Assembly (NCBI RefSeq): GCF_030823375.1 | Contig: NZ_JAUSXB010000001.1 | Coordinates: 62,001 to 126,000, forward strand | Source of the DNA: Pseudarthrobacter siccitolerans | Lineage (GTDB): Bacteria > Actinomycetota > Actinomycetes > Actinomycetales > Micrococcaceae | Direction: 5' to 3' | Length of the DNA stretch: 64,000 nt | Shown here: piece after piece, positions 47,990 through 64,000 of the stretch | Numbering within the stretch: position 1 is the first letter of the stretch | Layout of the letters: every line of letters starts with the position of its first letter | Notes under the pieces: generated by a model | Seen by the model: the letters and a program-made list of their open reading frames with translations, nothing else | Told to the model about the DNA's origin: nothing | The model's database searches: none | Made by a program: the position numbers and the translations under genes

Positions 47990-48340
47990 TTACTGCCAGA
48001 TGGTGGCAATAGCCACGTTCAGCAGCGCCAGGCCGCCCACGCCGTGAGCCAGGCCCTTGCTGACCGGCTCGTTGTTCTTGTACTTCCGGCGGCCGATAAA
48101 CGCCAGCACGCCAACAACGAGGGCGATGGCGAACTTGATGCCCAGCTTGACGTAGTTGGCGTCAATGTCCAGGGCCGGGATCAGGCCCATCAGGGCGATG
48201 CCGGTGAGGAGCTGGAGCATGGCGCCGTCGAACTGGCGGGGGTGGACGGTGGGATTTTTCATCTGGCCGATCCAGATGCCCACGATCATGGCGGCGCCGA
48301 CGATGTGCAGGAAAACCACGATGTTATAGACGATGTTCAT
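47990..48340 (-). CDS. Small four-helix membrane protein of unknown function
   Basis: 116 aa from ATG 48340. Four hydrophobic segments: NIVYNIVVFLHIVGAAMIVG, MLQLLTGIALMGLIPAL, LGIKFAIALVVGVLAFIG and GVGGLALLNVAIATIW. Helix 1 carries a His (FLHIVG) and the last loop a second (LAHGVGG), a pattern that could bind haem or metal, but this is only a suggestion. TACACT lies 6 nt before the ATG, and a palindrome like those before cydA lies just upstream, hinting at a respiration-linked role. Confidence 0.8.
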   Translation of the reverse strand: MNIVYNIVVFLHIVGAAMIVGIWIGQMKNPTVHPRQFDGAMLQLLTGIALMGLIPALDIDANYVKLGIKFAIALVVGVLAFIGRRKYKNNEPVSKGLAHGVGGLALLNVAIATIWQ

Positions 48341-62175: not shown

Positions 62176-63183
62176 TCAGCCGAACAGGCCCGGCGCCATC
62201 AGCAAGGCTGTGGGCAACGCCAGCAGGAGCACGCAGCCGGCGAGCACGAGGCTGCGGACCGGCGCAGGCAGCTGCGGCCGGGGCGAGAGCAGTCGGCTGA
62301 CCCGGGAGGCTGTGGTGCGGGCCGAGTCCGAGCCTGCAGCAGCCGCCGCCGAGTCAAGCCCGGCTAATGACAGTCCGGACGATGACAGCCCGGACGGGGT
62401 GCGTTGAAGTTCGGCCTCGCCCGGCGTCCTGGCGGCTCCGCTGGCCACGATGGCAATGGCCTTGATGAGCGTAGCCTTGCTCTCGGTCCTAAGCGCCACG
62501 TCGTCCGCCAGCATCTCGATCAGGGAGTTGACGGACTCCTGGGCAAGGCGCGTGGTGGGAAGCCAGGGGAGCGCCTGCCGCCAGGCGGCGAAGGCCCAGA
62601 GCAGCAGGTGGTGCCGCTGGCTCAGGTGCGCATTTTCGTGGATCAGCACCGCGCGGAGTTCGGCCGGCTCAAGGGCGGCCATCAGGCCGTCGGACAGCAC
62701 CGTCACGGAGCGCGCGCCGCCGGGAAGGCAGTAGGCCACCGGCGAATCGTGGCTGATGACCAGCGTTCCGGCTCCTTCAGCGGACGGGGAGGCCAGGAGC
62801 GCGAGAAGCTCCCGGTGCCGCCGGCGCTGGCGCTCGATCTTGTAATAGGTCAGCAGCAGGGTGAACACCAGGTGGGCGGTCAGCAGCGCCGCGGCGGACA
62901 ACGCAAAGATGTGCCAGAAACCGAGGTCCGTGGTGGGAGCGTTGAAGAGCACCATGCCCGCAAGCGCCCGCAGGCCGGCGAGCAGGTTATCGCCGATGGG
63001 CTCCAGGCCGTACACCAGCATGGCGCCGATCATCGACAAGCCACCGGCAAGTGCGATGGCCTGCCAGAGCAGCATGGCGGTAAAGGGGGATCGCGCGGGC
63101 CACTGCGCACGCGAGAGAAGGATAGGCACCGGCCACGCCAGGACTATCGCAAGGACCGCCAGCAGGTACGAGGCCCAGAACAT
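62176..63183 (-). CDS. BlaR1/MecR1-like M56 membrane metalloprotease
   Basis: 335 aa. Four to five membrane segments (about 4-24, 34-58, 88-112, and one near the C-terminus). The cytoplasmic zinc protease motif HENAH (H182, E183, H186) lies after SPVAYCLPGG. No penicillin-binding sensor domain follows, so unlike BlaR1 it cannot sense beta-lactams through a transpeptidase-like domain. It follows a BlaI-type repressor by 6 bp and presumably triggers its inactivation. The signal is unknown. Confidence 0.9.
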   Translation of the reverse strand: MFWASYLLAVLAIVLAWPVPILLSRAQWPARSPFTAMLLWQAIALAGGLSMIGAMLVYGLEPIGDNLLAGLRALAGMVLFNAPTTDLGFWHIFALSAAALLTAHLVFTLLLTYYKIERQRRRHRELLALLASPSAEGAGTLVISHDSPVAYCLPGGARSVTVLSDGLMAALEPAELRAVLIHENAHLSQRHHLLLWAFAAWRQALPWLPTTRLAQESVNSLIEMLADDVALRTESKATLIKAIAIVASGAARTPGEAELQRTPSGLSSSGLSLAGLDSAAAAAGSDSARTTASRVSRLLSPRPQLPAPVRSLVLAGCVLLLALPTALLMAPGLFG

Positions 63184-63189
63184 GGTCCG

Positions 63190-63576
63190 CTAGATGTGAC
63201 CAAGCAGTTTGCGCAGGGTCTCGGCTTCACCTTCGGAAACGGAGCCAATGAAGCGTGCCAGCACGGCTTCACGGTCCGGGGCTGAACCCAGTACTTCGTG
63301 CATCAGCTCAGCGGTGTGGTCCTCGCGGCTGGACACCGCCTGGTAGCGGTGCGGACGCATGCCGCGTTCGCGTTCCACCAGGCCCTTCTTCTCAAGCCGG
63401 GACAGGACTGTGAGCACAGTGGTGACGGCCAGTTCCTTGCCTTCGTGGCCTGCGCTGCCATCCTGGCCGGCGGAGGTCTGCGCCAGCCGGTCCCGCAAAG
63501 TGTTCGCGGTGGCTGCTTCATGGCCCGCCCAGAGCAGGTCCATCACTGCCCGTTCCAGTTCACCAAGACTAGCCAT
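63190..63576 (-). CDS. blaI: BlaI/MecI-family transcriptional repressor
   Basis: Dimeric winged-helix repressor. ATG 63576 gives 128 aa starting MASLGELERAVMDLLWAGHE. The helix-turn-helix covers NTLRDRLAQTSAGQD through LAVTTVLTVLSRLEKKGLVERER, and the C-terminal dimer helices run from HTAELMHEVLG to the end. AAAGGA precedes the start. Forms an operon with the M56 protease. Palindromic operator candidates lie in its own promoter region and before the divergent cydA. Confidence 0.92.
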   Translation of the reverse strand: MASLGELERAVMDLLWAGHEAATANTLRDRLAQTSAGQDGSAGHEGKELAVTTVLTVLSRLEKKGLVERERGMRPHRYQAVSSREDHTAELMHEVLGSAPDREAVLARFIGSVSEGEAETLRKLLGHI

Positions 63577-63680: not shown

Positions 63681-63697
63681 TTCTACATTGGGTAGAA
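63681..63697. promoter_or_regulatory. BlaI operator candidate 1 (blaI side)
   Basis: TTCTAC-ATTGG-GTAGAA palindrome. On the minus strand it covers the -35 position for a possible blaI -10 TAAATT (63662-63657), so it fits autorepression. Confidence 0.6.
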
Positions 63698-63763
63698 CAC
63701 GGGCGGGTCACGATCCGCGGCAAGCCGCGGGGGCCGCGGAGCGTTTTTACACCACCGCCGCGA

Positions 63764-63791
63764 TTGTTCTACACTTTGTAGAAGTTAGAGT
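63764..63791 (+). promoter_or_regulatory. cydA: Candidate cydA promoter
   Basis: TTGTTC (63764-63769) and TAGAGT (63786-63791) with a 16-bp spacer. Operator 2 lies in the spacer and operator 3 begins at the -10, so repressor binding would block RNA polymerase. Confidence 0.45.
63767..63783. promoter_or_regulatory. BlaI operator candidate 2 (cydA side)
   Basis: TTCTACA-CTT-TGTAGAA, a perfect 7-3-7 palindrome within the candidate cydA promoter. Confidence 0.65.
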
Positions 63792-63809
63792 TTCTACAGA
63801 ACGTAGAAA
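63791..63809. promoter_or_regulatory. BlaI operator candidate 3 (cydA side)
   Basis: TTTCTAC-AGAAC-GTAGAAA, a perfect 7-5-7 palindrome. Its centre is 25 bp from that of operator 2 and 29 bases before the cydA start. Confidence 0.6.
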
Positions 63810-63837: not shown

Positions 63838-64000
63838 ATGGACGCTATGGACGCTCTGGAAATCGCACGCTGGCAATTCGGCATCACCACCGTCTATCAC
63901 TTCATGATGGTCCCGCTCACCATCGGCCTGGGCCTGGTGGTGGCCGTGATCCAGACCATCTGGCACCGCACCGGAAAGGCCGAATACCTCCGGATGACCA
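63838..64000 (+). CDS. cydA: CydA, cytochrome bd oxidase subunit I (3' end outside window)
   Basis: First 54 codons of the quinol oxidase subunit that carries the haems and the quinol site; cytochrome bd supports respiration at low oxygen and under stress. AGGGA is 6 nt before ATG 63838; a second in-frame ATG follows at 63847. The segment ALEIARWQFGITTVYHFMMV with PLTIGLGL is the conserved first helix, and the His in VYHF corresponds to the haem b595/d-ligand His of the family (His19 in E. coli CydA). cydB is presumably downstream. Confidence 0.92.
   Translation, partial: MDAMDALEIARWQFGITTVYHFMMVPLTIGLGLVVAVIQTIWHRTGKAEYLRMT

Follow-up and report, generated by a model that had tools for sequence, protein, structure and literature searches.

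Layout of the blaI–cydA region

Near one end of the window analysed here, a 64-kb stretch of the Pseudarthrobacter siccitolerans genome, a repressor gene of the penicillinase type and its partner protease gene lie divergent from cydA, the first gene of a cytochrome bd cluster. This arrangement raises the question of what a BlaI-type repressor controls beside a respiratory oxidase, and what its protease senses. The features of this region are as follows.

Preceding the protease–blaI pair, plus strand: parE-type gyrase-B gene
62176..63183, minus strand: gene for a BlaR-type membrane zinc metalloprotease; 335 aa, without penicillin-binding domain; HENAH at residues 182-186, candidate third ligand E223
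63190..63576, minus strand: blaI, BlaI/MecI-family repressor; 128 aa from the ATG at 63576; PF03965
63681..63697, no strand: putative operator O1, blaI side; exact dyad
63746..63751, plus strand: candidate -35 of cydA, TTTACA; consensus match, partly conserved
63767..63783, no strand: putative operator O2, over the candidate cydA -10; exact dyad
63770..63775, plus strand: candidate -10 of cydA, TACACT, within O2; consensus match and footprint
63792..63808, no strand: putative operator O3, downstream of the inferred cydA start site; exact dyad
63838..64000, plus strand: 5' part of cydA, continuing beyond the window end; PF01654

The blaI product matches the Penicillinase_R profile (PF03965) with 73.7 bits against a curated cut-off of 22.6, and its sole sequence relative in the PDB is 2g9w (E 2.9e-15), which we take to be Mycobacterium tuberculosis BlaI. 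Pfam places cydB (PF02322) downstream of cydA, followed by a 1202-aa CydDC-like double ABC protein recognised by its ABC domains. The blaI–cydA intergenic stretch of 261 bp holds three exact TTCTAC-N5-GTAGAA dyads, as the initial annotation had described them by their common arms TTCTAC/GTAGAA; in the third, one further pair (T..A) matches, giving an extent of 63791-63809. The operator type cited there, TACAnnTGTA, requires correction: the half-sites here read TAC-N5-GTA and are one base wider. In Staphylococcus aureus, the BlaI/MecI operators are dyads with TAC/GTA cores whose half-sites lie one base closer (N4).

Conservation was followed in the best 80 of 102 BlaI relatives (the named loci), which belong to Arthrobacter or Pseudarthrobacter, save one Micrococcaceae MAG. 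In all 80, the 500 bp upstream of blaI contain exact dyads: 68 loci have three, 7 have two and 5 have one. The lack of conservation in relatives that the initial annotation had named as refuting its reading was thus not observed. When spacers from N0 to N12 were tested with these arms in the named loci, up to 400 bp upstream of blaI, N5 alone was found (223/223). Beyond this locus, the dyad is present in 101/101 genus genomes, with a mean of 7.40 per genome versus 1.16 for the reversed control pattern.

These counts, together with shuffled sequence, reject a chance origin. The window holds three exact dyads, all in the blaI–cydA gap, and 12 dyads with up to three mismatches versus a shuffle mean of 5.09. 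The 4.5-Mb home genome holds seven exact dyads versus one for the reversed control, and three dyads in 129 bp have a probability of about 7e-15 at the genus-wide control density. With up to one mismatch, the home genome has 13 dyads versus 9 for the control, i.e. one-mismatch sites number 6 versus 8. Exact sites are thus meaningful alone, whereas one-mismatch sites are not, and the latter were not accepted as evidence in their own right. One of them, directly 3' of a PIG-L (mca-like) gene, found no support in the other genomes compared.

A single cydA promoter match (TTTACA / TACACT) agrees with the consensus at 9 of 12 positions, and its -10 lies inside the second dyad and upstream of the third. 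In a footprint of 44 sequences (the window and 43 of the 80 named loci), the most conserved blocks are the dyad arms; O2 retains most of its spacer too, which contains part of the candidate -10. Among the 68 three-site named loci, O1 lies 95-109 bp from blaI and O2 lies 23-26 bp from O3 in all 68, while the O1–O2 distance ranges from 32 to 236 bp. Given these steady and variable distances, O1 behaves as a blaI operator and O2–O3 as a fixed cydA pair. One BlaI dimer would sit at O1, about 100 bp from the blaI start codon, a second over the cydA -10 at O2, and another about 24 bp downstream at O3. Because O2 lies on the candidate -10, promoter occlusion is the natural reading of how cydA would be repressed. 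A terminator-like hairpin-T match at 63725-63739, upstream of the cydA promoter, is poorly conserved among relatives, and a terminator role was dropped on that ground.

Genes marked by the dyad

Control of cydA by BlaI, as initially proposed, captures part of the picture: cydA is marked by dyads, but it is one of many marked genes. Four exact sites of the home genome lie outside the blaI–cydA region, at hemQ-hemH, at a cytochrome c maturation cluster (a histidine-phosphatase gene, then ResA, CcdA, ResB and CcsA, with a YceI gene opposite), at hmp next to an Rrf2/NsrR-like gene, and at the gene of a 119-aa membrane protein (L006:1069-1428; G000:C1, site at 2624446). The last is among the most constant targets, recurring in 5/5 genus genomes fetched and in G131, G118, G124, G111 and G108. 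A fourth site of the window, with one mismatch, lies before another small membrane protein gene.

47990..48340, minus strand: small membrane protein gene behind the site below; 116 aa
48361..48377, no strand: one-mismatch dyad TTCTACAGCTTGTAGTA

An orthologue of this gene carries an exact dyad in G131 and G118, from two other genera, and in G300, from a second family (f21, below). The longer frame of the 116-aa protein has no Pfam match, the names found in databases are hypothetical or conflicting, and protein searches with the two marked membrane proteins recovered no function. The 116-aa protein is itself a candidate haem or respiration protein.

Targets were then assigned in two samples. 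Within the genus, we took all 20 sites outside blaI–cydA from five of the 11 genomes with listed sites; 19 lie at the four promoters marked in the home genome and one at a pyridoxamine-oxidase-family gene. In other genera, all 44 sites outside blaI–cydA were taken from 16 genomes of 14 genera with listed sites, and 31 lie at orthologues of promoters marked (0-1 mismatch) in the home genome. These are hemQ-hemH (11), hmp (7), the ResA operon (3), the ABC-transporter gene of a CtaA-type operon (3), the 119-aa membrane protein (3), the membrane protein at 48 kb of the window (2), qcrC (1) and sucC (1). The remaining 13 lie at CopC (2), PPK2 (2), pyridoxamine-oxidase-family (1), CRP-like (1) and MarR-like (1) genes, with no gene assigned for six. 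Many sites lie between divergent genes, so that the target is ambiguous; in such cases a haem or respiratory neighbour was counted. The ABC operon includes ctaA in the home genome (Pfam) and in G111 and G108 (tblastn).

Two further genomes, rich in sites and analysed at every site, illustrate the breadth of the set. G111 has 15 sites although it has no cydA match, and hmp is absent from its marked genes. They mark blaI, hemQ-hemH, the small membrane protein, isocitrate lyase, ABC-CtaA, CopD-CtaG, CopC, SURF1, a pyridoxamine-oxidase-family gene, ResA-CcdA-ResB, COX2 (192 bp away), a UbiA-family gene adjoining parE that looks like ctaB, and the membrane subunit of succinate dehydrogenase (243 bp away, with the gene on the other side nearer); two have no clear target. 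The ten sites of G108 comprise three at blaI–cydA and one each at the small membrane protein, hemA|hemE, hemQ-hemH, ABC-CtaA and the ATP synthase operon, with two lacking an assigned gene.

The ATP synthase site of G108 is an exact dyad. In the genus, a one-mismatch site TTCTATCTNNTGTAGAA lies 71-97 bp upstream of atpI in 30/30 loci (31 genomes matched), and in 24/29 loci qcrC has a site with no more than one mismatch, always 70 bp away. The spacer is almost invariant at qcrC and largely so at atp, which makes conservation weaker evidence there. Since one-mismatch sites do not exceed the control in the home genome, the assignments of atp, qcrC, sucC and ctaA rest on conservation or on exact sites elsewhere. 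In one genome (G030:C1:1847132-1847915), qcrC is spread over three reading frames, perhaps through sequencing errors. Exact dyads were also seen at an isocitrate lyase gene (L332) and at two PPK2 genes (L223, L226), and the regulon may, in some genera, reach carbon and polyphosphate metabolism.

Among 197 genomes drawn across the class, the pattern TWCTAC-N5-GTAGWA is commoner than its control chiefly in one family besides the home family, f21, and operators of other groups may thus differ from this pattern. From f21, 20 loci of five genomes were sampled (all sites of G282, G332 and G316, 6/8 of G300 and 1/7 of G406). At three of them the dyad accompanies a gene for subunit I of cytochrome bd, divergent from blaI with its protease (the one checked against PF01654 gave E 3e-128); at locus L232 blaI lies ~760 bp away. 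Four are hemE-like, with or without an opposite DUF3817-type gene, identities that were established by Pfam in L247 and by eye in the remaining loci. Other targets are CopC (2), Rrf2 (1), a ResA-like gene (1, 34% identity) and the 48-kb membrane protein (1); one variant site lies ~0.5 kb before hmp, and 7/20 loci have no clear target. With dyads at blaI/cytochrome bd, hemE and CopC, the f21 BlaI, about 50% identical, appears to have retained, or come back to, this operator and a similar set of targets. At L247, L233 and L239 the dyad adjoins the DUF3817-type gene opposite hemE, an arrangement that ties this membrane family to haem synthesis.

The protease, its possible input and known systems

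That the partner, initially annotated as an M56 protein, lacks a penicillin-binding sensor domain was borne out, as none of its 335 residues fall in such a Pfam match. It scores 21.9 bits against Pfam M56, under the curated cut-off of 31, and 38.2 bits against M48 (cut-off 20.3). The membrane gluzincin signature, HExxH with a distal E, is present in 31/31 aligned protease orthologues. Hydrophobic segments span residues 1-27, 34-61, 87-113 and 304-335, and beyond residue 164 helices are the sole secondary structure of the predicted model. Among solved folds BlaR1 ranks first for this model, though the match is loose (rmsd 6.2, Foldseek E 1.5e-3). Cysteine C152, in an AYC motif, is invariant in 31/31 orthologues, and H104, in a hydrophobic segment, is kept in 28/31; both are possible sensing residues.

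Taken together, we consider it probable that BlaI represses a haem and respiration regulon through the dyads, and that the sensorless BlaR-type protease relieves this repression upon respiratory or haem disturbance. A BlaI dimer would bind TTCTAC-N5-GTAGAA and repress haem synthesis, cytochrome biogenesis and respiration, with cydABDC and blaI itself among its targets. When respiration or haem supply is disturbed, the co-encoded protease, which keeps its catalytic residues, would inactivate BlaI, a step we infer by analogy with BlaR1. The bd oxidase, flavohaemoglobin and the haem/cytochrome assembly line would then be induced together. Bd oxidases are tolerant of NO and cyanide.

Of the steps in this model, the input is the least secure. 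The marked genes combine haem production, haem-using enzymes and oxidase assembly, and they point to impaired cytochrome function or haem status and not to the cell wall; a signal on the respiratory or haem side is therefore likelier than one from the envelope. NO, copper and the redox state of the quinone pool are possible inputs.

A variant that differs in the signal alone accepts control by BlaI but sees its main purpose in the response to NO stress, centred on cyd and hmp. Its appeal lies in the hmp dyad, found in the home genome, in 4/5 further genus genomes and in 7/16 genomes of other genera, in the Rrf2/NsrR-like gene adjoining hmp in 5/5 genus cases and 5/7 cases from other genera, and in the one f21 site at an Rrf2 gene. 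Haem synthesis, cytochrome c maturation, haem A synthesis, SURF1, CtaG, COX2 and ATP synthase are, however, atypical of NO defence, and the 15 sites of G111 with neither a cydA match nor hmp fit it poorly. We regard it as unlikely.

Envelope or beta-lactam stress might instead be the true input, with respiration adjusted secondarily. The family name and classical role suggest as much, and in one study M. tuberculosis exposed to amoxicillin-clavulanate raised its blaI-blaR and cydAB transcripts (PMC5473688). The drop in ATP synthase transcripts reported alongside speaks against the regulon model above, as one repressor shared by both gene sets does not explain opposite responses. Here the protease has no penicillin-binding domain and the marked genes are mostly haem and respiratory. 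The earlier statement that no beta-lactamase gene is present holds beside the sites seen, but not for the genome, which, searched for the Beta-lactamase2 family, has a gene of that family (C1:3816229-3816765); the nearest dyad with 0-1 mismatch lies about 92 kb from it. This account, too, seems improbable.

The haem and respiration regulon has partial precedent. The same study, citing Sala 2009, describes binding of M. tuberculosis BlaI to the cytochrome bd and ATP synthase promoters, and a mycobacterial BlaR without a beta-lactam sensor domain (PMC5473688). Other reports describe an EMSA on the M. tuberculosis Rv1303 (atp) promoter (PMC12565901) and count blaI in the IdeR iron regulon (PMC7924339). 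In a TnSeq study, M. tuberculosis blaR is essential with haem or haemoglobin as iron source and dispensable under the remaining conditions listed in Table 1 of that study (PMC7058343), a haem-dependent need that the marked gene set fits. The M. tuberculosis pair BlaI (Rv1846c)/BlaR (Rv1845c) resembles the present one in its BlaI-family repressor and in a BlaR without extracellular sensor domain. Unlike the reported pair, blaI here adjoins cydA, and beyond the reported targets the dyads mark haem synthesis, cytochrome c maturation, flavohaemoglobin and haem A synthesis. A literature search, in which subscription journals were thinly covered, found no paper on BlaI sites at hemQ-hemH, hemE, cytochrome c maturation or hmp, although such work may be in print.

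The S. aureus BlaI-BlaR1 and MecI-MecR1 systems share the repressor family, and BlaR1 ranks first, if loosely, among solved folds for the protease, but here there is no penicillin-binding domain and the marked genes are respiratory and haem-related. Likeness to the CopY/TcrY copper repressors extends to the dyads that some relatives have at CopC genes; the NCBIfam match of 23.7 bits lies far under the equivalog cut-off of 121.95. CopY-type repressors have a cysteine metal site, and this BlaI has no Cys, so no such site is expected. HrrSA/ChrSA and Rex of other actinobacteria also control haem, cytochrome or cyd genes, but the former are two-component systems and the latter an NADH sensor, neither being a repressor–protease pair.

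The marked haem, cytochrome biogenesis and terminal oxidase genes of two actinobacterial families offer a concrete candidate answer to what such a pair senses, and suggest that respiration can be under the control of a protein classed as a penicillinase repressor. More tentatively, and with less conviction than for the regulon itself, we propose that the actinobacterial BlaI/BlaR-type pair is at root a haem/cytochrome homeostasis system. The protease would read membrane haem or electron-transport status, BlaI would set hemA/hemE/hemQ-hemH, cytochrome c and haem A assembly, oxidases, ATP synthase and NO defence, and beta-lactam sensing would be a later graft of the penicillin-binding domain.

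Co-occurrence of the dyads with BlaI

Attribution of the dyads to BlaI was followed across the home family. At least one exact dyad lies at 30/30 best BlaI loci of the family set, and at 19 of 20 further BlaI loci taken one each from 20 other genera; the exception, L065, has no dyad and a divergent BlaI (35% identity). Of 149 family genomes searched, 131 matched BlaI. A sample of 56 was compared, comprising all 18 genomes without a BlaI match, four genomes of genus g11 whose sole BlaI is divergent, and 34 chosen from those with a clear BlaI. Exact dyads number 2, 4 and 151 in these groups, or 0.04, 0.45 and 1.34 per Mb, against reversed-control densities of 0.07, 0.11 and 0.12 per Mb. The difference in dyad density between BlaI-less and clear-BlaI genomes (Mann-Whitney p 1.4e-8) persists when the clear-BlaI group is restricted to its 17 genomes no larger than 3.1 Mb (p 1.7e-6).

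The same contrast appears within genera. In g6, two BlaI-bearing genomes have one dyad each and five BlaI-less genomes none; in g14, one of the two BlaI-bearing genomes has a single dyad, the other has no exact dyad and carries a one-mismatch site at cydA, and five BlaI-less genomes have none. None of the 11 intact cydA genes in BlaI-less genomes is preceded by a dyad within ~330 bp, their best matches having 3-6 mismatches. Exceptions occur on both sides: two BlaI-less genomes carry one exact dyad each, and among BlaI-bearing genomes G188 has no exact site and G160, G201 and G143 have one each. Shared descent is unlikely to be the sole cause of the conservation, since the arms stay fixed where spacers and distances vary, and since BlaI-less genomes lack the dyads. 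This tracking across genomes supports in silico the original association of the dyads with blaI and with the cydA and blaI promoters, and the three dyads are very probably binding sites of the BlaI-type repressor.

That the dyads belong to another DNA-binding protein merely co-occurring with BlaI would be compatible with BlaI binding being predicted here from sequence, and with a second, weak PF03965 match in the home genome (24.7 bits, profile positions 6-57). It is nonetheless very unlikely, as the dyads lie in blaI's own promoter and are lost together with blaI within g6 and g14, and the dyad recurs next to blaI in a second family. Autoregulation of blaI alone, with the adjacent and divergent cydA a bystander of shared intergenic DNA, is scarcely credible and was rejected, because dyads stay at cydA apart from blaI: in G104 and G134, where the two genes lie on different contigs and are not adjacent, exact dyads are kept at both promoters, and the four g11 genomes each keep one exact dyad at cydA, distant from their divergent BlaI.
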